The notes beneath the pieces are model-generated. The model made no database searches. It was not told the DNA's origin and saw only the letters and a list, made by a program, of their open reading frames with translations. 64,000 bases of DNA from Microglena sp. YARC (taxonomy: Eukaryota; Chlorophyta; Chlorophyceae; Chlamydomonadales; Chlamydomonadaceae): assembly GCA_022414725.1 (NCBI GenBank), contig CM039462.1, forward strand, positions 53,828,534 to 53,892,533, in the 5' to 3' direction. The translations under genes and the position numbers were made by a program. Below, piece after piece: positions 1 to 64,000 of this stretch (position 1 is its first letter; each line of letters begins with the position of its first letter).

Positions 1-45
1 TAACCGTGACAATAACCATGTCCTTGACCACATTCCCATACTACA

Positions 46-3000
46 GGGTGTTTGACTCTATGTGGCCCATATTGGCTGCACTGACTTTCTTCGTCACAGG
101 AGCGGTTCTTCAGCACTTCCTAGCTTCAGCGGTTGCGTCTGCTGTGTGGAGGCAAGAGAAACTGGAAGGAAACTTCCGGTGGGTGGGTGTGGGTGGGTGG
201 TGGTGGTAGTTGAACCTTCCTTGTAAAAGGTTGTAGATGTTGAGGATGGGCGGATGGGTAATGTGAGCTGTAGAGCAGCACTTCCCAGCTCCAGCGGTGG
301 CGTCTGCTGTGTAGAGGCAAGAGAAGCTGGAGGGGAACTTCGGGTGTGGGTGGGTGGTGGGTGGGTGTGTATATGTGTGGGGGGATGGGGGGGGGGGGGG
401 GGGGGGGGGAGGGGTAGATGGTGGGCAGGGTGATGAGAGGATGAGGGGATGGTGGGATGGCGGTTTGGAGGCAGGGGATGGGCGGATGGGGTATGGGCGT
501 GAAGCTTGAGGGAAACTTCAGGTGGGAGGGTGGGGGTGGGGGGGGACTCTCGCTGAGTAGGATGGGAGGTGGGGGGTGGGTGGGGGGTGGGGGGTAGATG
601 AGGTTGTTAAACCTTCCTTGTGTTAGGTGTACGGTGGTAAGGGAGAGATGTCTTAGGTCTCAATCTTAGAATCGATTTATCACACTAACTCTTGCCATTG
701 TGCCCCCACATCGAGGCCCCCCCACGGAGCCCCCACTGAGACCCCCCATTCAGTCCCCAACCTAAGCTCTATACCCTAAACCCTACACCTTACACCTTGC
801 ACCCTAAACCAGAAATCCTGACATGTGAAACAACCACACTCCTGCCCAGGGCTGCCCATGGACAACTGAAATTTGAAATTTGAAACAACTGAAATTTGAA
901 ACAACTTTAATCCTGCCCAGGGCTGCCCATGGACGACTGAAATTTGAAATTTGAAACAACTGAAATCTTGAGATGTGAAACAACTGTAATCCTGCCCAGA
1001 GCTGCCCATGAACAACTGAAATTTGAAACAACTGAAATTTGAAATCTTGAATTGTGAAACAACTGTAATCCTGCCCAGAGTTGCCCATGGACAACTGAAA
1101 TTTGAAATTTGAAATCTCGAAACGTGAAACAACTGTAATCCTGCCCGGGGCTGCCCATGGAAGACTGAAATTTGAAATTTGAAACAACTGAAATTTGAAA
1201 TCTTGAAATGTGAAACAACCACACTCCTGCCCAGGGCTGCCCATGGACGACTGAGGGCATCCGCCGTCCCCATTTCCCTCTGGAGGGGGGCTTCGGCCGA
1301 ACTTGCTGGTGTCACTGACCCCTTCACTGCCCTTGCCAAGAACCAGCTAGGGCTGGTACTCTGGAGGTGGGCCCTAGGGCTTATCACCACAGCCCTGGAT
1401 TACAGCGGAGCTATGGTGGCGTACCTGTGTGTTGCTGTTGCTGTGTTCAGCGGTATATGGCAGCAGGCAGATGGCCCCCTTGGGGGGGGGGATGAAGGTG
1501 AGCTGGATGTACGTACCGTTTGTAATGTATGTATGTATGTATGTATGTAATGATGATGGTGTGTATGTCTGTATGTAGTGGTGATGGTGTGTTGGTGGGA
1601 GGTGGGCTGTAGGGCTTATCACCACAGCCCTGGATTACAGCGGAGCTATGGTGGCGTACCTGTGTGTTGCTGTTGCTGTGTTCAGCTTGAAAACACTGTC
1701 TTTATCCCTAATGCGACTCACCTTAAGAAAGCTGAAAATAAAAAGTAGAAGAGAAAGTATAAAAAATTGAATTTAACATTTGAAAACACTGTCTTATTCC
1801 CTTATGCTACCCAACGTGACCTACCATGTGCGCAACATGTAATGGCAAATGATTTGGCAAACGACCATTTGCCAACGTCGTTTCAGCACGTAAGTGAGCC
1901 GGTCCCGGGTCACCGGCGTTTGCCAAGTTTGTCCAACACCGTCGATTCAAACAAACTCAGTTCGACTGGTCCGGATCGCCTTGATCGTTCCTTGCATGCA
2001 CAGATTTCGAGATACAATGAGCTGGTCGCGCCTGTTGAAGCTGGTCGCGCCTGTCGAAGCTGGTCGCGTCTATCGCACTGACTGGTTTGAACGGCAGCGG
2101 TTTGAACTGCTGGATGCCACGTTTCTATGTCCCAGACCCGAAGGGTGATTCGCCCACAACCGTTCCGTTGCAAGGATCTGCCCCGAGCCTGGACTACTAC
2201 ATACGGAGGACAATTGCCACCCATACGTATCTCACAAAAAGGATTTGATGCACTGACCATTCCCCCCCTCCACCCCCCCAAAAAACACCACCAACATTAC
2301 TAATGAGTTTATCAGATTTCCTGAGTCGTTAGCCAGGCAAAGCCCTGATTTGGATCATTTCTTTTTCATAATATAACCGAGAGGAACTGTTTTTTAATGC
2401 ATTCCCAAGCAACCTACTGTTAAACATGGAAGAAGGAAACGTAACAAGCAAATTGGAGCTTTGCCAAATGTTTCCAAGTCAAACCTTGAGCAAGTCCCAG
2501 GCCCAAACCCTTTGCCAAATAAGTTTTGCCACACATTTGTGATCCAAGAAATATGTTAAAAAAACGCATTTGCCAATGTTTATTCTTGCCATTACATGTT
2601 GCGCATACGGTACAGAAAGCTGAAACATTGAAAGTAGAAGAGAAAGTATAAATGTGAAATTATATTATTTGTTAAATTTAATTATATTATTTAATGAAAT
2701 TTAACATTTGAGATGTTGTCTTAATCCCTTTTGCCACTCAACTTGACCTACAGAAAGCTGAAACACATGAAAATAAGAGAAAAGATGTACAATTTAACAT
2801 TTGAAAATGTTGTCTATATATTCCCTACCCAACTTGCAGAAAGCTTAAAATAAAAAGTAGAAGAGGAACCTGGAGGAACTGAACAAATTTGAAATTTAAC
2901 ATTTGGGAAAAGTGTATCTATTCTGCTACCCTACTGAACGTACAGAAAGGTGAAACATAGAAAGTAGAAGGGAAAATCAAGGGGGGGGCAACTTCAAACC

Positions 3001-3304
3001 AAAATGACCCCATCATCAAACCTTGTAGATATCATTGAGAGGATGAAGAATCCGGTCTTATTTCTTAATTTGGCCCAGTAGAAAAAAGTGCCGGTCCTCC
3101 AAAGTTTGGGGCCGAGGGGGGGGGGGGGGGGGGGGGGGGGTTAGGAAAACATCTGACATTTCAAAAATTAGGTACTTTTCAGCGGGGCCCTCAGGAAGTT
3201 GCTCGTGCACCGCATGCCAGAATTGGGGCCGGAAGGGGTCGTAAGCCCCGGAACCATTGAAAAAAGTCGGAAAATGTGTCGGGGTGGGGTAGATATCGAC
3301 CCCT

Positions 3305-4312: not shown

Positions 4313-7300
4313 GTCTTTTTCGTTCTGGTGCCTTGTGCTATTTGATGTTATTTGATGGACCCACAATCCAAGGGCACTACCTGCGACAAGTGCGGTCTTT
4401 GCGGCAACCACGGAAACTTAGAGCGCCATCAGAATTTCCTAAACCCTCAACCCTAATTCCCTCAACCCTACCCCCCCCCCCCCCCCCCCCCCAAGCCCCA
4501 CCAAACAAAGTAACATTGGTGATGATGATTTCCTATGCTTCAAACATTCCCAATAGTCTCGAGACCAACCTCAATGGATAGGCCTTTGAATAGCCTGTAA
4601 AATGAGCCTAATTAGACACCATAACACGAAGTGGTGGGTGAGATAATGGCTGTTCAGTGGGTTCCGGAGCCGGGGGGGGGGGGGGGGGTGAGGGCTGCAG
4701 AAGGGTGCCTCAGCACTTTTTTGTGATGGGGTCTAGCACCTTTTGTTTTTGCCCCCCCCCCTGGAGAAAATGTAAAACAAATGAAATTTCATTTGAAAAA
4801 CGTTTGCAACCCAACTTAAAGAAAGCTGAAACATAGAAAGGACAAGAGAAAATATGCAAATAGAAAACAAATTGAAAATTTACTATCCCCCTATGATCCC
4901 TGTATGTCAGCTGCAACTGGTCTTCTAAAGTACATCCTTGTACCCCACTATTTCCTCTCGTCCGTCTCCACCCCTAGCTGAAAATTATGAAGTAGAACTG
5001 AGTAGAAGAGAAAATATAAAAAATGAAAATTTGATTTTTTTTGTTGTTGAAAAACTGACCATCCCCCTATGATCCCTGGTTGGCAGCTGCAACAGGTCTG
5101 TGGCAGTATATCCCTGTACATCTCTCTTCCCTCACGTCTGTCTCGACCCCCTCGTCATTTGGGGCTGCAGGAGATGCAGATGTGTCAAGCCCAGGAGATA
5201 TTGCAAGCTTGGTTTCCAATGGAACATTCTTCCTCCTCTCTCTAGTCTACAAGTAAGTGCTAGTGCTTGGAGAAATGGGACACATGACAAATCAAGTGCT
5301 AGTGTGGTGGTGGGGGTGGGGGGGGGGGGGGGCTTTGTGGAAGGGGATATTGCAAGCTTGGTCTCCAATGGAACATTCTTCCTCCTCTCTCTAGTCTACA
5401 AGTAAGTGCTAGTGCTTGGAGAAATGGGACACATGACAAATCAAGTGCTAGTGTGGTGGGGGTGGGGGTGGGGGGGGGGGGAGGGGGGGCTTTGTGGAAG
5501 GGGATATTGCAAGCTTGGTCTCCAATGGAACATTCTTCCTCCTCTCTCTAGTCTACAAGTAAGTGCTAGTGCTTAGAGAAATGGGACACATGACAAATCA
5601 AGTGCTAGTGTGGTGGTGGTGGTGGTGGGGGGGGGGGGGGGCTTTGTGGAAGGGGATATTGCAAGCTTGGTCTCCAATGGAACATTCTTCCTCCTCTCTC
5701 TAGTCTACAAGTAAGTGCTAGTGCTTGGAGAAATGGGACACATGACAAATCAAGTGCTAGTGTGGTGGTGGTGGGTGGGGGGTGGGGGGGGGCTTTGTGG
5801 AAGGGGATATTGCAAGCTTGGTCTCCAATGGAACATTCTTCCTCCTCTCTCTAGTCTACAAGTAAGTGCTAGTGCTTGCAGAAAATGGGGAAATGGAAAA
5901 TAAAGTGGTATGGGGGTACTAGTGGTGGTATGGGGGGGGGGGGGGAGGGGGGGGGGGGGGGCTGTGTTAATGGAGATATTGCAAGCTTGGTCTCCAATGG
6001 AAAAATCTTCCTCCTCTCTCTTGTCTACAGGTGCTTGTGCATGGGTGTGGTGGGTCATGTATGGTAGCTATGTTGTGTGGTGGTGGTGGCGGTTGTGTTT
6101 GTTTACGTGTGTGTATGGGGGGGGGGGGGGGGGGGCTGTGGAAGGGGGTATTGGAAGCTTGGTCTACAACGGTGAAAGGGAGGGGAGGGGAGTCTGTATG
6201 TGAGTATGTATGTCATGGAGGGAGGGGGAGGGAGCCTGTGTGTGTAAGTGTGTCCAGGAGAGGGGTATGGCGGATGGCCACCTATTCCCCAGACCAGGAC
6301 TCTTTCACCACAACACAAACAACCCGCAACCGCCATCATTACCTCACCCCTACCCCCACCACGCAGCTACACGGGTCTACTAGACCTCCCCACTGAACAT
6401 TCCACTCATCTCCACTCCTACGCCACCACCACCGCCGCCACCACCACCCCACCACCAACCCCACCTCGACCTTCCACAGCTTCACGCGTCTACTAGACCA
6501 AGCCGCTGAGTTCTTTGCCGACTCACCACCTCACCACCACCATCACCACCCCTTCCCTCCCACCCCACATCACCATCACCCCAACCCCCACCCCAACCCT
6601 TCACAGCTCCACGCGTCTACCAGACATAGCCGCTAAGCTATTCACCGACCCACCACCACGCTACCCTCACCACACCACCGCCATCATCACCCCTTCCCCC
6701 CCACACACCACACCACCACACCACCATAACCATCACCTCAACCCCCACCCCAACTTTTTACATCTCCACGCGTCTATTAGACCTATCCGCTGAGCTCTCC
6801 ACCGCCTCACCACCACCACACCACCACCACCATACCCTCACCACCCCTTCCCCCCCACACCACACCACCACCACTACACCGCCATAACCATCACCCCAAC
6901 CCTCACCCCAACTTTTCACAGCTCCACGCGTTTCCTAGACCTAGCTGCTGAGCTCTCTACCGTCTCATTACCGCACTACCACCACCACCACCACACCACC
7001 ACCATCACCACACCACCACCACCACACCACCACCACCACCTCCCACCTCACCCCTATCCCAACTTTTCACAGCTTCACGCGTCTACTAGACCTCGCCTCT
7101 GAGTTCTCCACCTGCTGCGCCCTGGGATCCCCTCTTAGCACCCTCCTCCCACCCGCCACCCCAACCTTTCACAGCTTCACGTATCTGCTACCACCACCTC
7201 ACTCCAACCCCACACGCCCGTCAGAGCTCCTCCACTGTCTCACCACCACGCCACCCCCAACCCAATTTTCCACAGCTTCACGCGTCTGCTAGACCTAGCC

Positions 7301-9127: not shown

Positions 9128-10175
9128 TGCGGATCCGGAGGCTCTGTGCCGTGTGTTGATTGGCATGGGTGCGGCCATCATCAGCATGGGCCACAGGAGC
9201 TCTTTGAGGGCACTTCATACACCTGAGCTCTGCATTGGTGGCCATGGACTGGGAGGCTGGGAGCTGAAGAAGCTCTGATGCGGCTCTGACATAACATTTA
9301 GACAATAGTGCATGAACGTATGATTCACTGTATATCATGTTAAATGTTTGGTGATGCACACACATGAGCTGGTGGACTGGGAGGGCTGAAGGCCAGGGTT
9401 GTTCAGGAGGCTGTGTCCTCCGTCGCAGACGCAGCATCGAAGGGTCTGTTGCGTCGCAGGACGCAACGTGGGGAGGGTCAGTTGACCAGAAGAAAGGGTC
9501 TGCTGCGTCGCAGGTCGCAGGCTATACAATTGGTCGCGTCTCTGGCAGCAGAGCTGGGGGTCCTCTTGACCAACTGCTGAAGGCGCTCTGATGCGGCTCT
9601 GACGTAACAATTTTCAACAATACTAATTAAAAGCTTTAAAATATTGTGAATGATTCAGTGTATATCATGTTAAATGTTGAGGGCGATGCACACACATAGG
9701 CTGTGCATTTCTTGTGATAGACTGGGGGGGCTGGGATTATGCGGAGTAAAGGAGCTCTGATGTAACAGTATTCAGTAAAAATAATAATTGATATAGCAGT
9801 TAGTGATTTCGTATTCAAAATATTAAACGTGTTTAATGACTGGAGGCTCTGGTGTAACAGTATTCTATAATAATAATTTATAATACAGTTGATGATTTCG
9901 TATTCAATAATATTAAACATTTGAAATGAAGGTAAGTGTTGGAGGCGCTGCTGTTATAGTATTCAATAATGATAATAATTTATAATGCAGTTTTTGATTT
10001 CGTATTCAGTAATATTAAACATGTTTAATTAAATTAAATGTTGGAGGCGCTGCTGTAACCGTATGAAGTATTAATACGAATTTATAATGCAGTTGTGGTT
10101 TCGTATTCAATAATATTAAACATGTTTAATTAAGTTAAATGTTGGAGGACTTGCTGTAACCGTATTAAGTATTAA
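9128..10175 (+). repeat. Echo array of the transporter's C-terminal coding end and 3' flank
   Basis: About 150 bp ending at the stop (from GAGGCTCTGTACCG, 8986-9130) is repeated at about 9137-9280, again ending in CTCTGATGC. Progressively degraded copies of the GATGGACTGGGGGGCTGGGA part follow near 9370, 9570 and 9720, then shorter units (GGAGGCGCTGCTGTAAC plus AT-rich TATTCAATAATATTAAAC). None is in frame with a gene. The array resumes at 17968, so a LINE has inserted into it. Confidence 0.75.
9385..9560 (-). mobile_element. GACGCAAC-palindrome MITE, copy 1
   Basis: It contains repeated palindromic TTGCGTCGCAGGACGCAAC modules and ends resembling CAGGGTTGTTCAGGA. Copies in the opposite orientation lie at about 18145-18325, 23843-24025, 38490-38675 and 47818-48075. 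There is no coding capacity. It interrupts a unit of the 3' echo array. Confidence 0.6.
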
Positions 10176-12645: not shown

Positions 12646-12943
12646 TATCAGCTTGGATAACACTCCGGAGAGTGGACTTTGTGTGTGCAGCACGCCAATC
12701 TATAAATGCGGAGACGAGAATAAGTTACAAGCACAGGAGACCCATTAAGGGGCACCAGTGGAGGAAAGGGGGCGGTAGCCTGGAACCTGATCAGGGTGCA
12801 GGCTAGACAGCGCGTGTCAGAAGAACCGATGACGCAGTCAACAGGAAGCTGACATAGTACTGTCAGGATCGATAGTTCTAAGGGAGTACACAAGGAGTCA
12901 CCAAGACATAAAACAAGCGAGAGCACCGCTATTCATGCTGATA
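12646..12943. repeat. Left LTR (298 bp)
   Basis: Starts TATCAGCTTGG and ends ATTCATGCTGATA. Contains TATAAAT at about 12711. Differs from the right LTR at two positions by my reading. Confidence 0.85.
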
Positions 12944-18760: not shown

Positions 18761-19001
18761 ATTACTTTCCATTGTCATAGATATGTTCTTGTTGCCCTAA
18801 AACAAGCCCAAGCCACAAGGATGATCTTCCCATGTTAGATTTCTCCTCCTTTCTTTCTGAATTCTCATTGGGCGCTATTTGTGAACGGTGTCTCACTTCC
18901 TGGGGTGAACATATACATTGTAAACAAATATGAGGCCACGATTCATCGGATGATTCATTCACGAACAGGCAACTGATCTACAACTGCTAACCGATCTGAC
19001 G

Positions 19002-19011
19002 ATGACGTCAT
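19002..19011. promoter_or_regulatory. ATGACGTCAT palindrome upstream of first-exon copy 1
   Basis: A perfect bZIP/CRE-type palindrome lies about 220 bp before the ATG at 19233. The second copy has it at 24695-24704. This is a motif match only; function is inferred. Confidence 0.3.
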
Positions 19012-19232
19012 TCAAAATCGTACCAGCAGCGCCCGCGCCCGCTTGCTAGCGGTACAGGAGATTGATAGATTATACCCGCAAGCCAGAGCGATGGAATACA
19101 TCTCCGTTCTCATCCACTCATCAACACTCGCCTCTGTTTAGTTGCCTATTTTGTAGCTGATCAAGAAAGGAAACCCTCTCCTTTCCTCCATCCTCCTATT
19201 CCCTCCCAGAGTTACATACTAGCTCTTGCATC

Positions 19233-19417: not shown

Positions 19418-19439
19418 GTAAGCATTCCGACAAGTTCTT

Positions 19440-21200: not shown

Positions 21201-21207
21201 TTGTATG

Positions 21208-21361: not shown

Positions 21362-21464
21362 CTTGTATGCATGGTACCGTCCAAGGGGTAGCCAATTAGG
21401 CTGAAGGGACTTGCCCAACCTCTAACCTTCAAGATAATTACAGAAAACAAGGAGGGGCGACAAC

Positions 21465-22615: not shown

Positions 22616-22759
22616 ATGATACCTGACGTTACCTTTTGTATGCACCTGTTATCTATGGGCTCGACTCAGTTGGTAGCTAATGGAGCTGGGTAGAAGCTGC
22701 TATGCGTAGCCCCGAAAAGAAACAGTGCTGGTTGAGTTGAATTAAACTTGGTCGCTTAG

Positions 22760-32577: not shown

Positions 32578-32608
<31 letters not shown>

Positions 32609-43900: not shown

Positions 43901-45550
43901 CACCCACCTTCCATGAACCACCCACCAACTTAACCACTTATCATAAGCAGCGCAATCCAACACAACATACGCCAACACTAAGGAACTTAACGTAGCACAA
44001 TCTAACGCAACCAAACACCAAGCAACCAAATTCAAACTTACCCAACCCACCCACTCATTTCTCTTTCCTTGCCCTGTAACCCAGTCCTTCCTGATGGAGA
44101 AGAACAGCACCATGGAGGAGAACCACACATTTCTCTTTTCGTGCCCTGCCCACCCACCTCCCCACTTGACCACCCACCCACCTTGTCATTGATCCCACCC
44201 ACTCATTTCTCTTCCTGTACTGTGGAACCGAGGTCTTCCTGATGGAGGAGAACGGCACCACCAACCACTTAAGTATCTTGTCTTGCTCTGTGAACTGGTC
44301 AGCCACCTCCCCACTTGACCACCCACCCACCTCTTCAATGACCCCACCCACTCGTTTCTCTTTCCTTGCTCTGTAACCCAGGTCTACCTGGCGGAAAATA
44401 ACGGCATCACCACCCACTTATTTATTTGTTCTTGCTCTGTGGACTGGCCACCCACCTCCCCACTTGACCACCCATCCACCTCGTCATTGACCCCACCCAC
44501 TCATTTCTCTTTCCTCGCTCTGCAACCCAGGTCTCCCTGATGGAGGAGAACGGCACCACCCGCGATGACCTGGCCCTGCCCAGCGGAACTGAGGAGAACG
44601 ACAAGCTGGCCAAGTTGGTGCAGTCTGACTTTGATGAGGGCAAGGAGCTCAATGTCACTATCACCAAGGTATGTTGATGGATTGACAGTGATGGTGGAGG
44701 TGGTGTTGGTAAGAGAGAGTGGTCTCTGACTGTGGTGGTGAGCGCTCTACCTGGTACATGGTGTCGAAGCTGGTTTAGGTACAGAGATGTATACATGCAG
44801 TGTTGCAGAACTACACATAAGTACATGAAAACATGCACACACAGGCACCAAGTACATATAGGTGTTAGAGCAAAAGTACAAGCTGGTACTGGTGCGCAAA
44901 CACTGTAGGTACACTGGAAGCACAAAGCATATTCTCATTGCATGAAACAACCAGCTCCCCTCTCCCCATCAGCCTCAATGCCTTCTCCTCGACCCTCCTC
45001 CTGCACTCTCCCCCTCCCCTCCCCTCATCAGCCCCATGCTTTCTCCCCCCCCCCTTCCCTCTCCCCATCAGCTTCAATGCCTTCTCCTCGACCCTCCTCC
45101 TCCACTCTCCCCCTCCCCACACCTCCCCACACCAGCCCCATGCTTTCTCCCCCCTTCCCCCCCCCCCCCCCTCTCCCCATCAGCCTCAATGCCTTCTCAT
45201 CGCGTCTCCTCCTTCACTCTCCACCTCCGCCTCCGCTCCCCACCAGCCCCAATGCCTTCTCCTCGACTCTCCTCCTGCACTCTCCCCCATCCCTCCCCTC
45301 CCCTCATCAGCACCATGCTTTCTCCCCCCTCTTCCCCCCCCCCCCCCCCCCCCCCCCCCTCTCTCTCTCTCACACTCCACCCTCCTCCCCATTGGTAAAA
45401 TAGCCCCAACACGTAGACCAGTAGATTTTCGTTGTCATTCTACCATTGCCCAGTAGCCTCAATGCCAACTCCCCTCCTATTTTTTGCTTCCTGCAGGCCA
45501 TGGGGACTGAGATGATGTCCTCCTCCAAGGTCCAGCTGGGCGCCAAGTAG
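40933..45550 (+). CDS. Eukaryotic translation initiation factor 5A (eIF5A)
   Basis: Five exons join in phase 0: 40933-40965, 41248-41337, 42365-42544, 44531-44668 and 45497-45550 (TAG), giving 164 residues, normal for eIF5A. It binds the ribosome and promotes peptide-bond formation at difficult sequences, and needs hypusine. The hypusine loop [12 protein letters not shown] is intact with the modified Lys at residue 52. Other landmarks are [30 protein letters not shown] and the OB-fold end. Donors are GTGCGT, GTGCGC, GTAAGT and GTATGT. ATG at 40933 sits in CACCATGGC and is the only in-frame start in that exon. Intron 3 (2 kb) and intron 4 (0.8 kb) carry copies of the following exon edge or acceptor region. 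Confidence 0.95.
41340..42364 (+). repeat. eIF5A intron 2 with a duplicated internal unit
   Basis: A block TAGAGATCACAAGTTTGAAAATGT...CCCCGGCA occurs at about 41765 and 42140, and a CCTCTCCCACTCGTCC...CACACTCAATTGTCACA block at about 42050 and 42196. (ACTCAC)n lies before the acceptor. The first block faintly resembles exon 1 around GATCACGAG, too weakly to call an echo. Confidence 0.55.
43290..44530 (+). repeat. Echo array of the acceptor of eIF5A exon 4
   Basis: Copies of CAG|GTCTCCCTGATGGAGGAGAA begin at about 44085, 44233 and 44382 before the functional exon at 44531, a spacing of 148-149 bp each time. Each copy carries about 30 exon bases and a CCCACTCATTTCTCTTTCC intron end. Earlier degraded units with TTTCCTTGCCCTGTT and CCACCCAC extend back to about 43430. 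Confidence 0.9.
44942..45496 (+). repeat. Pyrimidine-rich repeat array before the eIF5A exon 5 acceptor
   Basis: CATCAGCCTCAATGCCTTCT-type units occur near 44968, 45068, 45180 and 45243, with alternate CATCAGCCCCATGCTTTCTC units and poly-C/CT runs. The final unit (AGCCTCAATGCC at 45456) leads to the true CTGCAG acceptor. Here mainly the intron side is repeated. Confidence 0.75.
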
Positions 45551-52400: not shown

Positions 52401-52654
52401 CATGTGTGTGAGTGTGTGTGTGCGCGCGTGAGAGTGTGTGCATGTGTGAGGGTGAGGGTGAGGGTATGCGTACATGTGTGTGTGTTTGAATGCAACTATC
52501 TCATGCCACTTTGTAGACACAATTCGTGTGTGCACCGCTATCCACTTGAGTCAGTCAGAGACTTTAGTTAGTTTGTGTTTACGGTTGTGTTGTGTTGTGT
52601 TGTGTTTTGTTACGGTTGTGTTGTGTTTTGTTGTGTTGTACGGTTTACCCATCC

Positions 52655-53117
52655 CTGATCTTCGCCCCAAACGGATCTTAGGGGAGGGGCCAGATACACA
52701 CATAAACACTGACTCCAACCCTAATCTGGGGACCCTGATCTTCGCTCCAAACGGATCTTAGGGGAGGGGCCAGATACACACATAAACACTGAACACCAAC
52801 CCTAATCCGAGAACCCTGATCTTTTGCCTAAGATCCCTCTTATCCCAGAGGGACCTTGGGCAAGGAGCCAGCTAGGTACGGTGAAACAATATCCCTACGG
52901 GTTCGCTTTAGTGTTCGAGGTCGCTGTCAACCGCCATGGTAGCTTTGTCCAGGTAAAGTAGCAGCCCGTTCCCTACCGCCGTAAGACGGGGCTCCTTGAT
53001 ACCACGCCTTACCAGGCGGTATCATAACATTACTGTGAGACAAGATCTTGGACAGCAGAGCATGTGATTGCACTGACCCTGATCTTCACACAAACCCTAA
53101 TCCCGAAACCCTGATCT
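52655..53117 (-). repeat. Echo array of the nucleoredoxin C-terminal coding end and 3' flank
   Basis: Read on +, CCCTGATCTTC...GGATCTTAGG...GGGCCAG units at about 52660, 52731 and 52815 match 53112-53160, which holds the last codons and stop. A further piece (TTGGACAGCAGAGCATGTG) near 53050 matches 53172-53193. The copies lie 3' of the gene, as in the transporter gene. Confidence 0.7.
52905..53035 (+). mobile_element. SINE-like body, copy 4 (diverged)
   Basis: GTCAACCGCCATGGTAGCTT and ACCACGCCTTACCAGGCGGT match the 22367 family. It lies inside the nucleoredoxin 3' echo array. Confidence 0.5.
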
Positions 53118-56100
53118 TCACGCTAGAGGGATCTTAGGCAGGGAGCCAGCTAGGTACTGTGACACAAGCTCTTGGATGGCAGAGCCTGTGATTGCTCCAC
53201 TTGGGTAGTAGCCCCCCTCTGCCCCGGGAGCCATTTCAGCACCCATCTTGTAAAAGCATTGGGAAGGTACATCGAGCAGCACTACAGTCTCCTTCCCAGC
53301 TCGCATTGGCTCCATCTGCGTTATTGCCAAAGATAGGGGTGCTGGTGTTGGTGGCGTTGCTTTATTTGATCACAGTGGTGGTGGTGGTGGTGGTGGTATT
53401 GACGTCGTTCTTTGTTGTTGTAGTGGTGGTGGTAAAAGCGTTGGGAGGGAACGTCGAGCAGCACTACAGCCTCCTTGCCAGCACTCATTGGCTCCATCTG
53501 CGTTATGGCCAGAGAGGGTGGTGTTGGTTTAATTTTATGTTTGTTGTCGTGGTGGTGGTCGCATTGTCGCCGTCCTTAGTTGTAGTGGCGGTGGTAGAAA
53601 AATAGAAAAGGTGCATCGAGCAGCACTACAGTCTCCTTGCCAGCACTCATTGGCTCCATCTGCGTTATGGCCAGAGAGTTTGTTTTGTTTGTTTGTTTTT
53701 TGTCGTGGTGGTGGTGGTGGGTGGTGGTATTGACGTCGTGCTTAATGTTTGCTTTTGTTTGTTGTAGTGGTGGTGGTAAAAATATAGAAAGGGTACATCG
53801 AGCAGCACTACAGTCTCCTTGCCAGCACTCATTGGCTCCATCTGCGTTATGGCCAGAGAGATGTTTTTGTTTGTTTGTCGTGGTGGTGGTGGTGGGTGGT
53901 GGTATTGACGTCGTGCTTAATGTTTGCTTTTGTTTGTTGTAGTGGTGGTGGTGGTAAAAATATAGAAAGGTACATCGAGCAGCACTACAGTTTCCTTGCC
54001 AGCACTCATTGGCCCCATCTGCGTTATGGCCAGAGAGATGTATTTGTTTGTTTGTTGTCGTGGTGGTGGTGGTGGGTGGTGGTGGTAAACCACATCAAAT
54101 CAAACCACATCACACCAGCACTTCCCACGTCTCCCCTTTCAGAACTCCATCACCTGTCCCATCAGCTCATTGCTCTTGGGGGTATACCACACCACACCAC
54201 AGCATACCACACCAAACCAAAGTATACCACACCACACAACAGCAGTACTTCACACGTCTCACCTTACATAACTGCATCACCTGCTCCATCAGCTGATTGC
54301 TCTTGGGGGTGTACCACACCACACCACACTACAGCATAGCACACCACACCACAGCATACCACACCAAACCACACCAGTACTTCACACGTCTCACCTTACA
54401 TAAATCTATCACCTGTCCCATCAGCTGATTGCTCTTGGGGGTATACCACACCACACCACACCACACCACACTACAGCATACCACACCAAACCAAAGTATA
54501 CCACGCCACACCACAGCAGTACTTCACACGTCTCACCTTACAGAAATCTATCACCTGCTCCATCAGCTGATTGCTCTTGGGGGTGTATAAGAATGTGACG
54601 TCTTCGCCAGCTGCCAGGGTGGCACGTGCCACGTCACCAAGCAGCTCCTCAGATCTAGCAGCACCTTCCTCAGGTGTGGTGTCGTCTAGCGCCAGAAGCA
54701 GTACAGGACCATCGTTCAGACTGGACGCGGTGTATGGGCCTAGCCGGTCGACTGGGGGGTGAGTGGGGGAGTCAGGGTAGGGTAGTGAGTGGGGAGGGGG
54801 GGAGGGGGGGTTAACCGTGTGGAGTGGTGTCGTCTAGCGCAAATGGAAGTACAGGAGCATTGTTGAGGCTGGACGCGGTGTAGGGGCCTAGCAGGTCCAC
54901 TGGGGTGGAGAGGGAGGGTGCGGAGAGTCAGGGTGGGTTGGTGGCAAGGAGGGAGGGGAGGGAGGGTGGGTGAAGGGTGTCAGGGTGTAGTGTGATGTTG
55001 TCCAGCGCAAAAGGAAGTACATGACCATAGTTGAGACTGGAGGCGGTGCAGGGGCCTAGCAGGTTGACTGGGGTGGAGAGGGGGGTGGGTCGGGAAGGGG
55101 GGAAGTCAGGGTAGGGTGGTAAGCGGGGTGGGGAGTGGGGTGGCGTGGGGAGGGGGGGAGTAAGGGTGGGTGAACTGTGGGGGTGTTGTCTAGCGCCAGA
55201 AGCAGTACAGGACCATCGTTTAGGCTGGACGCGTTGTAGGGGCCTAGCAGATTAACTTGGGCGGAGAGGCGGGGTGGGGTGGGTAGGGGGGTAGTCACAG
55301 TAGGGTGGCAAAGAGAGTCAGGGTGTATTGGTGACAGGGGGAGACGGGAGGGAGGGTGAGTGGAGGGTGTCAGGTTGTGGTGTGGGCTTGCCTAGCACCC
55401 AAAAAATCACAGGACCATCGTTGAGATTGGACGCGGTGTAGGGGCCTAGCAAATTGACTGGGGTGGAGGGAAAAAATAGGACTCACCAGGCTTGGGCCGC
55501 CATGGGAAATCCACCCCCTCAGGGTCAGTCCCAACTGCTTCCCTGCTGTTAGTGGCCACCACATTATCCTCAGGGTCTACCACCACCACCACCACCACCA
55601 GGGTGGGGATGCCATCTAAGTCAAAATACACACATAGGAGGGGAAAAAACATGAAAAAGCACCCCACACACCTACACCATACACGCACATGATAAATCCA
55701 ACGCCTACCTGCTGTTAGTGGCCAGGTTAGGGATGCCATCCAAGTCAAAGACATACACATTCGAGCTTGCAAAAAAGCAAAAAAGCAAAAAAGCAAAAAA
55801 AAAATGAAATCTCACCTGGCTTGGGCCTCCATGGGTGGTCCACCCCCTCAGGGTCAGTCCCAACTGCTTCTCTGCTGTAAGGGGTCGTCACTGCCAGGCT
55901 GGCGCTTCTAAAATGCATTTTTAATAAATAGTAATAACAAATATATACAAATATATTAAAATTAAAACTCACCAGGCTTTGGCCGCCATGGGAGGTCCAC
56001 CCCCTGTGGGTCAGTCCCAACTGCCTCCCTGCCGTAAGTGGTCGTCACTGTCAGGCTGGCGCTTCTAAAATGCTTTTTTAATAAATTAGTGATAACAAAA

Positions 56101-58885
56101 TATATTACAAATATATTAAAATTAAAACTCACCAGGCTTGGGCTGCCATGGGAGGTCCACTCCCTCAGGGTCAGTCCCAACTGCTTCCCTGCCAATAGTG
56201 GTAGTCACCGCCAGGCTGGCGCTGCCAAATTGTAAAAAAAAAAGCGCTCACCAGGCTTGGGCCACCATGGGAAGTAAAAAATCGAAAAATGAAGAATAAA
56301 CATGAGCATTAAAAATTAATAATGTAAAAAATGTAAATAATGCAAAAAACCACTCACCTGGCTTGGGCCGCCAAGGGAAGTCTACCCCCTCAGGGTCAGT
56401 CCCAACTGCTTCCCTGCCATTAGTGGTCACCAAATTGTCCTCAGGGTCCACCACCACCAGGGTGGGAATGCCATCTAAGTCAAAAAGAGTGTTCAGGGCG
56501 GCCTTGGTTGGCTGATCGGCAAAGGGCACAGCAAGAAAAGAGCCCATCTCACTAAGGTAGGACTTGAAGTCTTCATCGCTGTGTGGTGGGGTGGGGTGTG
56601 GGTGGGGTGGGGGCGTGTGAGGGGTGTGTGGGGGGGGAGGGATGGGGGCAGGGGGATGGGGGGTCTGTGTCCTGGTGTCCTGGTGTGTTGGGGGGTAGGG
56701 GGGGTAGGGGGTAGGGGGGGGTGGGGTGGGGTGGGGGGGCTGTTAGTGATTTCAGGCAGTGGTGGTGAGGGTGGTGGCCTTGGTTGGCTGATTGGAAAAG
56801 GGCACAGCAAGAAAAGAAACCCATCTCGCTTAAGTAGGACTTGAAGTCTTCATTGCTATGTATTGGGGTGGGGTGGGGGGGGTGGGGGGGGGTGGGGGGG
56901 GGCAGCCTTGTGAGGGGGGTGGGGGTGGGGGTGGGGGGTCTGTGTGTCTGTGTCCTGGTGTGTTGGGGGGGTAGGGATGGGGGTAGGGGGGGGGGGGGGG
57001 GGGGTGTCTGTGTGTCTGTGTGTCTGTGTCCTGGTTGTGTTGGGGAGGTAGGGGGGGGGGGGGTCTGTGTGTCTATGTCCTGGTGTGTTGGGGGGTAGGG
57101 ATGGGGGTAGGGGGGTCTTTTGTGTCGGTTGTGTCGGTGTCCTGGTGTGTTGGGGGGGTAGGGGGGGGGGGGGGGGGGTCTGCTAGTGATTTCAGGCAGT
57201 GGTGGTGAGGGTGGTGGCCTTGGTTGGCTGATTGGCAAAGGGCACAGCAAGAAAAGAGCCCATCTCACCAAGGGAGGACTTGAAGTCTTCATTGCTGTGT
57301 ATTGGGGTGGGTGGTGTGGTTAATTGGGTTGGTTGTTGGTTGGAGGGTGGTGGCGTGTGAGAGGGGGGGGGGGGGGGTCTGGGGAGCTGGTAGAGATTTC
57401 AGCTGATCGGCGAAGGGCACAGTAAGGCAAGTGGCATTCTTTCATAGATAGAAGCCTTGAAGTATTCCTTACTGTTACTTTGGGGTATGGTTGGTAGTTG
57501 GAGGGTGGTGGTAGTTGTTGCTAGGTGGCTGGTGGGGGTGAGGGGGTGTTAGGGTGCTGGGTGTGTGTGGTGTGGGGTGTGTGTGGTGGTGGGGGGGCTG
57601 GTAGTGATTTTAGGCAGTGGTGGTGGTGGTGGTGATGGCGGGGGTGGGCACTTAGGTGGGCGTTGAAGTCTTCCTCGCTGTTACTTGGGGTATGGTTGGT
57701 GGTTGGAGGGTGGTGGTAGTAGTTGCTAGGTGGCTGGTGGGGGTGAGGGGGTGCTAGGGTGCTGAGGTGTGGGGTGTGTGTGTGGGGGGGGGGCTCGGTA
57801 GTGGTTTTAGGCAGTGGTGGTGGTGGTGATGGCGGGGGTGGGCACTTAGGTAGGCGTTGAAGTCTTTCTCGCTGTTCATTGGGGTGGTTGGTAGTTGGAG
57901 GGTGGTGGTAGTTGTTGCTGGGTGGCTGGGGGTGAGGGGGTGCTAGGGTGCTGGGGGTGTGGGATGTGTGTGTGTGTGTGGGGGGGGGGCTAGGTAGTAA
58001 TTTCAGGCAGTGGTGGTGGTGGTGGTGGCGGGGTGGGCACTTAGGTAGGCGTTGAAGTCTTCCTTGCTGTTAATTGGGGTGGTGGCGTGTGAGGGGGGCA
58101 TGGGGGAGGGGGAGGGGTCTGCGTGTCTGTGCTGGTGGTGGTGATGGCGGGGGTGGTCAGTTAAGTAGGCCTTGAAGTCTTCCTTGCTGTTTATTGGGGT
58201 GGGGTGGGATGGGGTGGGTCTAGTTTAGTTTGGGTTGTTTTGGCAGAGTCCCCCCCTTCTGGGGGGCGGAAGCCCCCAGTGTTATCCCGTTGTCCGTTTG
58301 TGCGACCGAAACATGGAAGCCCGACACGTCAGCCAACTGTCTCATAACTAACTGGCTTTGGTCAGCTCCATCGTTGCCACCTTTCGTTCTGTTGCCTGTC
58401 CTCCCCACCCGCACCTCCACCCTACCCACGCCACCCACACCCACAGACCCCCCCCCCCCCTCCTTCTGCCAGCACTAATGAATAATGAAAACACACTCCG
58501 AAGCTTTTGCCCTATCCCACCACCACCCACCACCACCACCCAAAACCAACCTAACCCCCTCACCTTATGCCTCAGCAATTATAAAGACTATATACAGCTT
58601 TGCCCTATCCCCCCCCCCACCCCCCACCCCACCCACCCACCCACACACACTTTCTGTCAGCACTAATGAAGACACACTCCAAAGCTTTGCCCCCCCTCTC
58701 CACCCACCCCCCACCCCCCCCACCCACCACTCACACACCTTCTGTCAGCACTAATAAAGACGCACTCCAAAGCTTTGCCCTACCCCCCCCCTCCCCCTTC
58801 CCCCCACCCCCACCCCACACACACACACCCTTACCTTTCTGTCAGCACTAATAAAGATGCACTCCAAAGCTTTGCCCTGTCCCCC

Positions 58886-58916
<31 letters not shown>

Positions 58917-61277
58917 ACCACGTACATCCCCCCCACCACACCCTTACCTTCTGTCAGCACTAATAAAGACGCACTCCAAAGCCTTGTCCCCCCCCCCACA
59001 CCCCCCACACACCCACACGAACACCCAAACACTCTTACCTTCGGTCAGCACTAATGAAGACGCACTCCAAAGCCTTCCCTCCCCCCCCCCCCCACACACA
59101 CACACACCACTCACACACTTTCTGTCAGCACTAATTAAGATGCACTCCAAAGCTTTGCCCTATCCCCCCCCCCCCCCCCCCCCCCCCCCCTCCCCCCACA
59201 CACACACCCTTACCTTCTGTCAGCACTAATAAAGATGCACTCCAAAGCTTTGCCTTCAGCCTTCAGCTTGTTAACTACCTGGCTCAGCTGGGGGGTGAAT
59301 GCTTTGCAGGGGGGGCTGTGGACAAGGAGGGAATGGTGATAGGGTGGGGGGATAGGTGGTGGAAGACGATGTGTGTGGTGGTGGTGTGTGTGGTGTGTGT
59401 GGTGTGTGTGTGGTGTGTGTGGTGTGTGTCGGGGTGGGGTGGGTGTGTGTGTGGTGGTGGTGTGTGTGGTTGTATGGTGTGGGGGTGTGGGTGTGTGGGG
59501 TGGGTGTGTGTGTGTGTGGTGGTGGTGTGTGTGTGGTGTGTGTGTGTGGGGTGGGGGGTGTATGTGGTGTGTGTGTGGTGTGTGTGGGGTGGGTGTGTGT
59601 GTGTGTGGTGGTGTGTGTGTGGTGTGTGTGGTTTGTGTTGGGGTGGGGGGTGGTGTGTGTGTGTGTGTTTGTGTGTATGGTGTTAGTGGTAATATGTTTG
59701 GTGTTTGTGTGTGGTGTGGTGTGTTTGTGTGTTGTGTGCGTTGTGTATTTTTCTGTGTGGTGGTGGTGGTAATATGTTTGGTGTTTGTGTGTGGTGTGGT
59801 GTGTTTGTGTGTTGTGTGGTGTGTTTGTGTGTTGTGTGTGCTGTGCGTGTTGTGTGTTTTTCTGTGTGGTGGTGGTGGTAATATGTTTGGTGTTTGTGTG
59901 TGGTGTGGTGTGTTTGTGTGTTGTGTGTGTTGTGTGTTTTTCTGTTTGTTGCTGGTGGTAATATGTTTGGTGTTTGTGTGTGGTGTGGTGTGTTTGTGTG
60001 TTGTGTCATTGTGTGTGTTGTGTGTTTTTCTGTGTAGTGGTGGTGGTAATATGTTTGGTGTTTGTGTGTGGTGTGGTGTGGTTGTGTGTTTGTGTCATTG
60101 TGTGTGTTGTGTGTTTTTCTGTGTGGTGGTGGTGGTAATATGTTTGGTGTTTGTGTGTGGTGTGGTGTGTTTGTGTGTTGTGTCATTGTGTGTGTTGTGT
60201 GTTTTTCTGTGTGGTGGTGGTGGTAATATGTTTGGTGTTTGTGTGTGGTGTGGTGTGTTTGTGTGTTGTGTCAATGTGTGTGTTGTGTGTTTTTCTGTGT
60301 GGTGGTGGTGGTAATATGTTTGGTGTTTGTGTGTGGTGTGGTGTGTTTGTGTGTTGTGTCATTGTGTGTGTTGTGTGTTTTTCTGTGTGGTGGTGGTGGT
60401 AATATGTTTGGTGTTTGTGTTGTGGTGTGGTGTGTTTGTGTGTGTTGTGTCATTGTGTGTGTTGTGTGTTTTTCTGTGTGGTGGTGGTGGTAATATGTTT
60501 GGTGTTTGTGTGTAGTGTGGTGTGTTTGTGTGTTGTGTCATTGTGTGTGTTGTGTGTTTTTCTGTGTGGTGGTGGTGGTAATATGTTTGGTGTTTGTGTG
60601 TGGTGTGGTGTGTTTGTGTGTTGTGTCAATGTGTGTGTTGTGTTTTTTCTGTGTGTGGTGGTGGTAATATGTTTGGTGTTTGTGTGTAGTGTGGTGTGTT
60701 TGTGTGTTGTGTCATTGTGTGTGTTGTGTGTTTTTCTGTGTGGTGGTGGTGGTAATATGTTTGGTGTTTGTTGTGGTGTGGTGTGTTTGTGTTGTTGTGT
60801 CATTGTGTGTGGTTGTGTGTTTTTCTGTGTAGTGGTGGTGGTAATATGTTTCGGTGTTGTGTGTGTGGTTGTGTGTCTGTGTGTGTGTGTTGTGTGTCGT
60901 GTGTGTGTGTGTGGTGTGGTGTGTTTGTGTCATTGTGTGTGTTGTGTGTTTTTTCTGTGTGTTGCTGGTGTAATAGTCATGTAGGATTGGCCCTTAGGCA
61001 TGAAGCTGTGGGGTGATTGCTTTGCAGGGGGGGCTGTGGACGAGGAGGGGATGGTGTTAGGAGGGGGTTGGGGGTTGGGGTTGGAAGGGAGATAGGTGAT
61101 GGAAGACGATGTGTGTGTGTGTGTGGAGGGTGGTGGTGGTTGGTGTGTGTGTGTGTGTGTGTATGTGTGTATGTGTATTTGTGTGTGTGCGAGGGTGGTG
61201 GGTGGTGTGGTGGTGTGTGTGTGTGTTGTGTGTGAATGTATGTGTGTAAGTGTATGTGTGTAAGTGTATGTGTGTAA

Positions 61278-61308
<31 letters not shown>

Positions 61309-61362
61309 GAGGGTGGTGGTGGTGGTGGTGGTGTGTGTGTGTGTGTGAATGTATGTGTGTAA

Positions 61363-61393
<31 letters not shown>

Positions 61394-61478
61394 GAGGGGT
61401 GGTGGTGGTGGTGGTGTGTGTGTGTGTGTGAGTGTGTGTGTGTGTATGTGTGTGAGTGTATGTGTGTGTGTGTGTGTG

Positions 61479-61542
<64 letters not shown>

Positions 61543-63231
61543 GGGGGGGGGGCTTCAGCGTGTTATATACTTGGCTCAGCTGGGGGGTGAATGCTTTGCA
61601 GGGGGGGCTGTGGACAATGAGGGATGGTGTCGGCGTTGTTGTGTGTAGTGTGTGTGTTTGTGTGTGGTGTTGATGGTAGTATGTTACGTAGGGTTGGCCC
61701 TGAGGCAAAACTGTGTGGCGTGAATGCTTTGCAGGGGGGGCTGCGGACAAGGAGGGGATGGTGTGTGTGTTCGTGTAGTGTGTGTTTGTGTGTGGTGTTG
61801 ATGGAAGTATATTACGTAGGGTTGGCCCTGAGGCATATCTGTGTGGTGTGAATGCTTTGCAGGGGGGGCTGCGGACAAGGAGGGGATGGTGTGTGTGTTC
61901 GTGTAGTGTGTGTTTGTGTGTGGTGTTGATGGAAGTATGTTACGTAGGGTTGGCCCTGAGGCATATCTGTGTGGCGTGAATGCTTTGTAGGGGGGGCTGC
62001 GGACAGGGAGGGGATGGTGGTAGTGGTAGGGAGGGTGTGTGTGTAGTTTGTGTGTTTGTGTGTGATCGTGTGTGTGGTGTTGGTGTTAATATGTTGTGTA
62101 GGGTTGGCCCTGAGACATATAGTCTCCTATTGTCAACAAGCCAAGCCAGAAGATTTTAAAACATAACTTTTATGGTGGTGAGCAGGGGGGGGGCAGAAAG
62201 ACAGATTTTGGACCGAATCTTCGATATGGTGTCCGATTCAGATGGGAGTTGGAATTGTGGACGTTTCATACAAAAAGAGGGGAAATATAAAGTTGGCTAA
62301 AAGTATTTTTACCCCCCCCACCCCACCCCCCATTCCCCCTCCTAAAACCCAATTACCTCACCCTACCCCCCCTAAAATGGGGGTCATTCGAAAGATCTTT
62401 TAAAGCCCATTTCAGTTATGCTCTTACATCTTTCATGGGGTTACCCAAATGTGATTTATTGCGAAGTTAAGATTTGGGCCGCTTTGGTTGAAAAAAACTT
62501 TGGACCCCTCTAACTTTTGTGCAACTTTATTTTTGGCTCAATTTTTTTTTTTTTTTAATATAGTTTGAGGATAGGCTCTATCCAAAGCTAAGGTGCGGTA
62601 CGGCAGCTTTTTTCTTGCCCCCCCCTCGGTGGTGAGTGCAAGTTTTGTTCTATATTTTTTCTTGTGTATATATATATATATATATATATCCACTTATGGA
62701 TATGTATATTTAAATATAAAATAAAAATGTACACAAGAAAAAATATAGAACAAAACTTGCACTCACCACCACAGTGCAGAGAAATAGATGAGCTTGTACT
62801 TGTTGGCTAGTGCGGCTGTGCCGCCATGCTCCTTGCCTTCCTTGTCAACAAGCTTGCCAGACAAAAGATTAAAAAAACTAAAAAACCCATAAAAAATCAA
62901 ATAAATAATATAAAAGAAGAAAACAATTGCACTCACCACCATAGTGCGGAGAAATAGATTAGCTTGTACTTGTTGGCTAGTGCGGCTGTGCCGTCATGCT
63001 CCTTGCCCTCCTTGTCCACAAGCTTGCCAGACAAAAGATACGAAAACAAATCGTATAAAAAATCATACAAAAGAAAAATAAATTGCACTCACCACCACAG
63101 TGCAGAGAAATATATGAGCTTGTACTTATTAGCTAGTGCGGCTGTGCCGTCATGCTCCTTGCCTTCCTTGTCCACAAGCTTGCCAGACAGAAGCTCAGAG
63201 AGGGTCTTGGGCTTCCAGGGGAACTGCTCTC
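53118..63231 (-). CDS. Nucleoredoxin-like thioredoxin-domain protein, N-terminal part outside window
   Basis: Minus-strand exons in order: 63231-63093, 59315-59214, 56578-56358, 54751-54537 and 53315-53118 (TGA), with consistent phases (1, 2, 2, 1, 0 at their starts). They encode about 290 residues. One tryparedoxin-type domain is complete: KLIYFSALW joins [13 protein letters not shown] across a splice to give the WCPPC redox site. [48 protein letters not shown] and [13 protein letters not shown] follow. The C-terminal part ([19 protein letters not shown]...[11 protein letters not shown], then [14 protein letters not shown]) fits nucleoredoxin's divergent last domain. [12 protein letters not shown] at the visible start is an inter-domain linker, so at least one more domain is expected beyond 64000. 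The family reduces disulfides in cytosol or nucleus. Each visible exon edge inside the gene has echo copies. Confidence 0.85.
53440..54035 (-). repeat. Echo array of the acceptor of the last nucleoredoxin exon
   Basis: Copies of CGCAG|ATGGAGCCAATG...GCTGCTCGATGTACC (minus) lie at about 53447-53500, 53611-53659, 53793-53841 and 53971-54018, upstream in transcription of the real exon start (53315). Each holds about 50-60 exon bases. GGT/TTTGTTTG spacers separate them. Confidence 0.85.
54100..54536 (-). repeat. Echo array of the donor end of nucleoredoxin exon 54751-54537
   Basis: Copies of TACACCCCCAAGAGCAATCA...(minus) occur at about 54184-54138, 54313-54262 and 54445-54394, after the real exon end in transcription. 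Period is about 125-140 bp; CCACA repeats separate them. Confidence 0.85.
54824..55470 (-). repeat. Echo array of the acceptor of nucleoredoxin exon 54751-54537
   Basis: Four copies of the exon start (minus: GGCCCCTACACCGCGTCC...GATGGTCCTGTAC) at about 54902-54824, 55070-54991, 55260-55185 and 55462-55391, each with about 75 exon bases and a CCCCAGT-like acceptor side. G-rich (on +) spacers. Confidence 0.85.
55480..56275 (-). repeat. Echo array of the donor end of nucleoredoxin exon 56578-56358
   Basis: Copies of the [20 protein letters not shown] end with a GGTGAG donor at about 56235-56127, 56055-55968, 55900-55813 and 55625-55482, plus fragments near 56275-56247 and 55750-55705. The 55625-55482 copy is long and reaches back to [10 protein letters not shown] with an expanded GTG run. 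Confidence 0.85.
56760..58195 (-). repeat. Echo array of the acceptor of nucleoredoxin exon 56578-56358
   Basis: Copies of AGCAATGAAGACTTCAAGTC... (minus) at about 56862, 57297, 57472, 57681, 57869, 58060 and 58183 as start points. The first two keep about 90 exon bases (through [10 protein letters not shown]); the others are shorter. G-runs and TGTGTCCTGGTGTGTTGGGG blocks lie between. Confidence 0.8.
58238..58400 (+). mobile_element. Dispersed GGGGGGCGGAAGCCCCC repeat, copy D
   Basis: CCCCCCTTCTGGGGGGCGGA, TTGTCCGTTTGTGCGACCGA and ACACGTCAGCCAACTGTCTC match copy A. It lies within an intron of the minus-strand nucleoredoxin gene. Confidence 0.65.
58460..59160 (-). repeat. Echo array of the donor end of nucleoredoxin exon 59315-59214
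   Basis: About eight copies of AAAGCTTTGGAGTGC...ATTAGTGCTGACAGAA ([11 protein letters not shown], minus) at about 59155, 59075, 58982, 58873, 58773, 58690, 58590 and 58510 as start points, every 80-110 bp, many followed by GGTAAGG or AAGTGT. Poly-C/CA spacers on the + strand. Confidence 0.85.
59360..59680. repeat. (GT)n/(GTGTGG)n tract
   Basis: Low-complexity G/T sequence. Long Cys-Val-rich open frames over it are artefacts. Confidence 0.9.
59685..60970. repeat. 88-bp minisatellite
   Basis: About 13 units with TGTGTTTTTCTGTGTGGTGG, GGTAATATGTTTGGTGTTTG and TTGTGTCATTGTGTG blocks. Middle units are nearly identical at exactly 88 bp; end units vary. Confidence 0.9.
61005..62120 (-). repeat. 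Echo array of the acceptor of nucleoredoxin exon 59315-59214, with (GT)n
   Basis: Minus-strand CCACAG|CCCCCCCTGCAAAGCATTC copies start near 61033, 61608, 61740, 61868 and 61993. The 61608 copy extends to about 58 exon bases ([14 protein letters not shown]). (GT)n tracts occupy 61100-61545. The last three units are about 126 bp apart. Confidence 0.85.
62360..62560. repeat. Dispersed repeat CTAAAATGGGGGTCA..., copy 2
   Basis: CCTAAAATGGGGGTCATTCG through TGATTTATTGCGAAGTTAAG matches 46072-46205. Confidence 0.65.
62628..62770. repeat. Perfect 41-bp inverted repeat around a (TA)n loop
   Basis: Left arm 62628-62668 (GGTGGTGAGTGCAAG...) is the exact reverse complement of right arm 62730-62770. 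The 61-bp loop contains (TA)n and TCCACTTATGGATATG. The arms include the GGTGGTGAGTGC donor sequence of nucleoredoxin exon 63231-63093. Confidence 0.95.
62757..63042 (-). repeat. Echo copies of the donor end of nucleoredoxin exon 63231-63093
   Basis: Two copies (about 62866-62763 and 63040-62934) of [20 protein letters not shown]...FSAL with the same GTGGTGAGTGC donor follow the real exon end. They keep roughly 100 exon bases with few changes; the period is about 165 bp. Confidence 0.85.
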
Positions 63232-63239
63232 CTGTGGGT

Positions 63240-64000
63240 TGGTTGGGTTGGTTGGTGGTTGGTTGGGTTGGTTGGGTTGGGTTGGTTGGTTGGTTGGTGG
63301 GGTGGGTGGTGGAGGGTGTTTGAGAGGGGGTGGGGTAGGTGGGCTTCCAGGGGAACTGCCTCACCTGTGGGTGGGTGGGTGGGTGGTTGGTGGGTTGGGT
63401 GGGGTGGGTGGTGGGAGGGTGTTTGAGAGGGGGTGGGGGTAGGTGGGCTTCCAGGGGAACTGCTCACCTGTGGGTGGGTGGGTGGTTGGTTGGTGGTTGG
63501 TGGGGTGGGTGGTGGGAGGGTGTTTGAGAGGGGGTGGGGGTAGGTGGGCTTCCAGGGGAACTGCTCACCTGTGGGTGGGTGGGTGGGTGGTTGTGTTGGT
63601 GGTGGGTGGGTGGTGGGAGGGTGTTTGAGAGGGGGTGGGGGTAGGTGGGCTTCCAGGGGAAACTGCTCACCTGTGGTTGGTTGGTTTGGTTTGGTTGGTG
63701 GTTGGTGGGGGGTGGGTGGTGGGAGGGTGTTTGAGAGGGGTGGGGGTAGGTGGGCTTCCAGGGGAACTGCTCACCTGTGGGTGGGTGGGTGGGTGGTTGG
63801 TGGTTGGTGGGGTGGGTGGTGGGAGGGTGTTTAAGAGGGGGTGGGGGTAGGTGGGCTTCCAGGGGAACTGCCTCACCTGTGGGTGGGTGTGGTGGTTGGT
63901 TGGTGGTTGGTGGGGTGGGTGGTGGGAGGGTGTTTGAGAGGGGGTGGGGGTAGGTGGGCTTCCAGGGGAACTGCTCACCTGTGGGTGGGTGGGTGGGTGG
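63240..64000 (-). repeat. Echo array of the acceptor of nucleoredoxin exon 63231-63093, running off the window
   Basis: Seven copies at about 63342, 63447, 63548, 63649, 63752, 63853 and 63957 (+ positions), every 100-105 bp. On the minus strand each reads CCCACAG|GTGAG(G)CAGTTCCCCTGG, with about 25 exon bases. The functional exon has CCCACAG|GAGAGCAG instead. GGTTGG/GGTGGG spacers. Confidence 0.9.

Follow-up and report, generated by a model that had tools for sequence, protein, structure and literature searches.

How does an intron come to hold several decayed copies of the edge of the exon beside it, complete with splice site? The question is raised by a 64,000-nucleotide stretch of the chlorophyte Microglena sp. 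YARC (GenBank assembly GCA_022414725.1, contig CM039462.1, positions 53,828,534 to 53,892,533 of the forward strand), hereafter the window. Four partial protein-coding genes were mapped in it: an ABC transporter gene, a DUF1997 gene, an eIF5A gene and a nucleoredoxin-like gene. Arrays of exon-edge and splice-site copies are confirmed in this window, eIF5A being the weak case. As to their origin, we consider it probable (about 0.72) that the introns were enlarged from shorter ancestors by duplications that straddled a junction, that those neutral to the mRNA survived, and that they were later amplified into arrays.

Exons were placed by open reading frame and protein homology, giving 16 acceptors, 13 donors and 4 stop-codon edges in the four genes; every splice in the resulting models yields a single open frame. 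Each edge was searched with a 40-base straddling probe (24 exon and 16 intron bases), and matches were counted above the probe's best match on the opposite strand and >12 kb away. A second set of 40-base probes, exon-only, was used on the same junctions and stop edges. With straddling probes, copies were present at 21 of the 29 junctions, and at least two copies at 19. Thirteen of the 16 acceptors had copies, with 59 upstream of the exon and none downstream; 8 of the 13 donors had copies, with 30 downstream and none upstream. One donor match, at 10517, was excluded because it scored 15 against a threshold of 14 and lay outside the gene in unrelated DNA, so that 29 were kept. Two of the four stop edges had copies (four in total, all downstream). 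Exon-only probes gave copies at 11/16 acceptors (50 upstream, 0 downstream), 9/13 donors (30 downstream, 0 upstream) and 2/4 stop edges (two copies, downstream). By gene, straddling probes found copies at 5/6 junctions in the transporter, 6/9 in DUF1997, 1/5 in eIF5A and 9/9 in nucleoredoxin. No array was present at the first-exon donor of DUF1997, which makes a tenth junction in that gene.

The 88 retained copies compare with a mean of 1.75 and a maximum of 4 per 29-junction set when the flanks were dinucleotide-shuffled (20 shuffles). Random positions outside the mapped gene bodies (4.5-kb radius; the first DUF1997 intron was included) showed a copy at 43/290 and at least two copies at 2/290, and strictly non-genic random positions at 41/255 and 9/255, respectively. 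The 4.5-kb radius was used because a 6-kb radius non-genic control (145/290) was inflated by a 5.7-kb duplication described below. The copy blocks join exon edge and intron, and the copied signal is an existing donor or acceptor. Within the window, none of the 29 exon-only junction probes had a match on the opposite strand or >12 kb distant that scored above 18.5 of 40. These findings bear out much of the original prediction, made from the letters alone: decayed copies lie upstream of the exon for acceptors and downstream for donors, none on the wrong side; the rule holds on both strands and in unrelated genes; the unit straddles the junction, exon edge and intron being recovered as one block; copies far exceed the shuffled expectation; and the genes hold many decoy splice sites. 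Two of its statements had to be narrowed. Arrays in all four genes had been claimed, which stands for the transporter, DUF1997 and nucleoredoxin genes but fits only one junction in eIF5A, and the stated array size of 2-8 copies fails at two of the 21 copy-bearing junctions, which have a single copy by straddling probes.

In the transporter gene (+ strand), straddling probes detected a donor array of two copies after exon A1 (179..540), an acceptor array of five copies, each with ~20 bp of exon, before A2 (812..1254; also detected by Tandem Repeats Finder, TRF), a single acceptor echo before A3 (4895..5086) and a donor array of five copies after it (5193..6042; also TRF). Both probe sets detected the acceptor array before A4 (6366..7275), which has six copies and, by exon-only probes, one more at 6366-6405. 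In the DUF1997 gene (+ strand), exon D1 has an acceptor array of one copy by straddling and three by exon-only probes (29221..29664) and a donor array of two copies (29795..30253; TRF and straddling probes). D2 is preceded by six acceptor copies with (CTAAC)n linkers (30457..31471; TRF and straddling probes) and followed by donor copies numbering two by straddling and four by exon-only probes (31532..32005; also TRF). Five copies with (CTGA)n linkers precede D3 (32158..32962) and six with CAA/CCA linkers precede D4 (34434..35631), both seen by TRF and straddling probes. About 23 copies of a 31-bp unit, intronic only, begin directly after the GT of the D4 donor (35745-36455). The sole junction array found in eIF5A, three copies at the E2 acceptor (44069..44530, + strand), was detected by TRF and straddling probes.

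All junctions of the nucleoredoxin gene (- strand) carry copies, detected by straddling probes unless more is said. Exon N5 has four acceptor copies (53316..54035; also TRF). N4 has three donor copies (54120..54536; also TRF) and four acceptor copies (54752..55457), and N3 has five donor copies (55487..56357) and six acceptor copies (56579..58202). Both probe sets found eight donor copies at N2 (58447..59213) and two at N1 (62752..63092). Five N2 acceptor copies are spread over 59316..62012, with a repeat array that has no recognised exon content between them; self-alignment places a long array of this kind at 59680-60990 in intron 1. Seven N1 acceptor copies, all reading AG|GTGAG, occupy 63232..64000 and reach the end of the window.

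All 88 junction copies lie on the intron side. When a tandem duplication covers one junction, the protein stays the same only if the added copy is intronic, so surviving copies are one-sided; a copy on the coding side would be a duplicated coding segment, which selection should purge. If selection is the explanation, the same rule is expected at borders without splicing, and it was seen at two of the four stop codons, where the echoes lie downstream only. In the transporter, the coding end and stop are copied 3′ of the stop in a unit of 149 bp, a length not divisible by 3 (9128..9278, + strand; both probe sets); in nucleoredoxin, three straddling copies, one barely over threshold, and one exon-only copy lie 3′ of the stop (52648..53117, - strand). 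One-sided placement thus follows from geometry and selection, and no special mechanism is needed. Growth always into the intron had been proposed as a special property; this is not supported, and one-sided placement is not confined to splice junctions. Within the A4 coding exon, the longer-period repeats lying wholly inside it have periods of 87 and 24, both multiples of 3; TRF also reported weaker short repeats there, whose periods range from 3 to 13 and are in some cases not divisible by 3.

Spacing between copies had a median of 149 bp (interquartile range 104-175, outliers to 1.7 kb, 92 intervals), and 25/92 spacings were multiples of 3, showing no frame preference. The copies have diverged by 645 substitutions (transition/transversion ratio, ts/tv, 0.95) and 334 gap columns. 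Within an array the exon breakpoint is largely common: in 60/86 copies the exon end lies no more than 4 bp from the median exon depth of the array, although low-complexity alignment blurs these depths in a few arrays. The originally proposed outward growth, in which the live edge is copied again and again, was rejected, because the exon-proximal copy was closest or co-closest to the exon in just 3/15 arrays and no similarity gradient was present. A better fit would be a single founding breakpoint at each junction and later amplification during which the live edge stayed near the pool of copies. By eye, possible microhomology was noted at breakpoints, for example CTCTGAC beside (CTGA)n in D3 and TTTTAC beside (CAC)n in N5.

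Across 13 introns, end-anchored arrays span 60% of the sequence, or 56% if a weak copy at D4 is left out. Eight introns have an array at each end. Their innermost donor and acceptor copies leave between them a core of 28-771 nt (median 285), whereas the whole introns now have a median length of 1,605 nt; two D2 donor copies were taken into this computation from the exon-only probes. The shortest core, in nucleoredoxin intron 3, fills the gap that separates the donor array from the acceptor array (55458..55486, - strand) and reads as 29 nt, GT...AG, or 28 by the offset of the computation; the core of nucleoredoxin intron 4 measures 117 nt. We propose that the bracketed core may be the remnant of the ancestral intron. 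By simple counting, the share of duplications that straddle a junction would be 81% for an intron of 200 nt, 63% for one of 300 nt and 13% for one of 2 kb, based on 80 of the 92 spacings (12 that were >212 bp or at stop edges were omitted). If the core is the ancestral intron, most units would have straddled a junction, and the abundance of junction arrays would be explained without targeting.

A history can be proposed on this basis. Ancestral introns would have been shorter and would have lengthened through local tandem duplication of ~70-200 bp units, perhaps by slippage or microhomology. While introns were short, most units would have overlapped one of the two junctions. The survivors would be those in which exactly one junction was duplicated, the spliceosome stayed with the copy beside the exon body and the mRNA was unchanged, so that an extra exon edge and splice site were left in the intron. 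Each junction would have had one founding duplication, amplified later to an array, often with simple-repeat linkers. If splice sites pair across the exon (exon definition), the inner copies would be silenced and arrays could build up as introns lengthen. The observed part of this account comprises the arrays, their placement, the largely common breakpoints, the intact decoys and the stop-codon echoes.

The decoys bear directly on exon definition. The splice-site dinucleotides are intact in 84 of the 88 copies (AG 57/59, GT 27/29), and 50/88 decoys score at least as high as the live site (33/59 acceptors, 17/29 donors). Use of a decoy would lead to a stop or frameshift in 82/84 intact cases, with a stop in 76/84. 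At all 21 copy-bearing junctions, the live site chosen by reading frame is the closest across the exon and the farthest across the intron. This choice of the exon-proximal pair suggests exon definition. Carranza, Shenasa and Hertel 2022 (PMC9225289) state that, where several sites compete beside long introns, the two nearest each other across the exon are favoured, that the preference is opposite for short introns, and that the cited transition occurs at flanking introns of 200-250 nt. The arrays demand the same choice, which in our case is read from sequence. Under exon definition the decoys would be silent, and once an intron had grown beyond 200-250 nt further duplication would presumably be harmless. 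It is possible, and we suggest it tentatively, that the process permits itself and acts as a ratchet: past the length at which exons pair, duplicated junctions would be silent and duplications free, both intron halves would inflate, and the ancestral intron would be left as a central fossil.

The arrays might instead be functional, with decoys kept because they are used, either in regulated unproductive splicing or in the recursive, step-by-step removal of long introns. The intact dinucleotides and high decoy scores agree with this, as do the mismatches at decoy GT/AG, 6/176 against the 12-13 expected from neighbouring bases in a within-array control, about half of expectation. However, this excess conservation is marginal (p 0.04-0.06). 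Dinucleotide conservation was considered as proof of function and rejected: a raw rate ratio of 0.28 fell to that p value under the control. All seven N1 acceptor copies (63232-64000) read CACAG|GTGAG, the zero-length-exon form, unlike the live site CACAG|GAGAG. The recursive-splicing form AG|GT also occurs in D2 and some E2 copies, where it is followed by a poor donor, but is missing from most other acceptor arrays. Spacing is frame-neutral, most intact decoys run into a stop if used, and the stop-codon echoes contain no splice site. A functional origin is therefore unlikely.

We regard as somewhat less likely still a process targeted to junctions, such as RNA-templated repair or splicing- or R-loop-linked damage at exon-intron borders. 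It would accord with the concentration of arrays in introns and with strand-asymmetric introns, as transcription-linked events could give: in each of the 13 introns the 5′ end had a higher GC skew than the 3′ end. Yet junctions are not enriched over intron interiors. Arrays were found at 21/29 junctions and at 151/227 intron-interior points at least 200 bp from a junction (Fisher p=0.68); many of these points fall in junction-anchored arrays, so the comparison indicates that junctions are unexceptional and does not imply an independent interior origin. Straddling-probe copies, moreover, carry intron sequence along with the exon edge, and two stop-codon edges show like echoes. What stands out for arrays is gene bodies, unlike junctions within introns: a local copy was present for 303/444 intron probes and 41/255 strictly non-genic probes. 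The introns are also bipartite on the sense strand, G/T-rich sequence tending to lie in the 5′ part and C/A-rich sequence in the 3′ part, in some with a sharp switch (e.g. 59213-56579). Pairing of the two halves was considered and rejected, as their common 12-mers were not specific to the same intron.

Assembly or sequencing artefact, through read expansion over simple repeats, is very improbable: although simple repeats and long homopolymers, poorly handled by assemblers, separate many arrays and the 5.7-kb duplication could be a haplotype artefact, the copies are diverged, exon frames are intact, misassembly would not give the placement rule, and two public gene models (P0006 and P0126, possibly from the same assembly) contain decoy-derived peptide.

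Several observations weigh against enlargement by mRNA-neutral, junction-straddling duplication. The scarcity of copies in non-genic DNA is not predicted by a uniform neutral duplication rate, so the account needs an extra bias linked to introns, to transcription or to simple repeats. Array-poor introns exist: a local copy was present for 24/89 probes in the second transporter intron (A2) and 4/64 in the body of the first DUF1997 intron. Eight of the 29 junctions had no copies. Only 9/616 exonic columns show a fixed difference between the live exon and all its copies, so that a single old founder cut off from the exon does not fully explain the pattern. The halved rate of GT/AG mismatches in decoys leaves room for selection.

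The ABC transporter gene runs from the window start to 9127 (+ strand) and the eIF5A gene from 42365 to 45550 (+ strand); the nucleoredoxin-like gene occupies 63231-53118 (- strand). The DUF1997 gene (+ strand) has two copies of its first exon, at 19233 and 24926, and continues at 29665-38138. All four were assigned by reading frame, protein homology and Pfam, with ABC transporter, DUF1997, eIF-5A and thioredoxin-like matches, respectively. The first DUF1997 exon is doubled by a head-to-tail duplication of 5.7 kb (17185-22882 / 22882-28582, 99.3% identity), which could be recent or a haplotype or assembly artefact. Our DUF1997 splice matched Pfam DUF1997 with 63.3 bits over profile positions 20-153 of 153, whereas the public model P0126, whose start falls in the first decoy of the D1 donor array, gave only 29.2 bits. 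The public nucleoredoxin model P0006 holds decoy-derived peptide (~55600 and ~54900) and is without the exon bearing the CPPC motif; it also has extra N-terminal sequence lying outside the window, in which a repeated peptide may mark another array. The public model P0001 agrees with our transporter splice. A pattern search of the window did not find the N-terminal coding exons of eIF5A (GRPCK region); two similar stretches 5′ of the gene, one at 41765 and one at 42138, could represent a copied edge of an upstream exon. Retroelement reverse-transcriptase fragments lie at 10450-12700 (Pfam RVT_1 at 11913-12401). Rfam gave a single tRNA match in the window, close to the cut-off, and ARAGORN none.

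Many splice sites in these genes look good yet must be passed over, and annotation needs care accordingly: public models for two of them take decoys as exons or miss real exons. If enlargement by junction duplication were true genome-wide, the lengthening of introns could be followed clearly in their own sequence, and dozens of cases in which near-identical splice sites compete naturally, and the exon-proximal one has to win, would allow a direct test of exon definition. Were the self-permitting ratchet true as well, the growth history of introns could be read from the introns themselves, and the genome would contain a large set of natural experiments in splice-site competition.

Among the openly licensed literature matches listed, judged by titles and the starts of abstracts, no description of introns built of junction-straddling arrays was found. 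Zhuo et al. 2007, by its title, reportedly concerns human introns arising from tandem arrays. Introners (PMC9860276), as described there, resemble the present case as a process shaping introns in many genes of a lineage; they insert copies of themselves in many genes, whereas here every array appears private to its own junction within the window. A system in which the duplicated unit is exonic is alike in that splice signals are copied through duplication in local tandem and the form whose mRNA is acceptable survives; here the unit spans an existing junction and the outcome is growth of an existing intron. The closest case is that of Ma, Lan and Niu 2016 (PMC4974935), who report a junction-crossing tandem duplication in the potato RNA-dependent RNA polymerase (RdRp) gene. 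There, one duplication in one gene created a new intron; here, 1-8 copies at either or both intron ends, at 21/29 junctions, go with apparent lengthening, and no new intron is inferred. With junction-straddling duplication in print, and interiors as array-rich as junctions, the separate intron class that had been suggested is not supported. The type of mutation is ordinary and already known from one case (PMC4974935); its extent in these introns is unusual.

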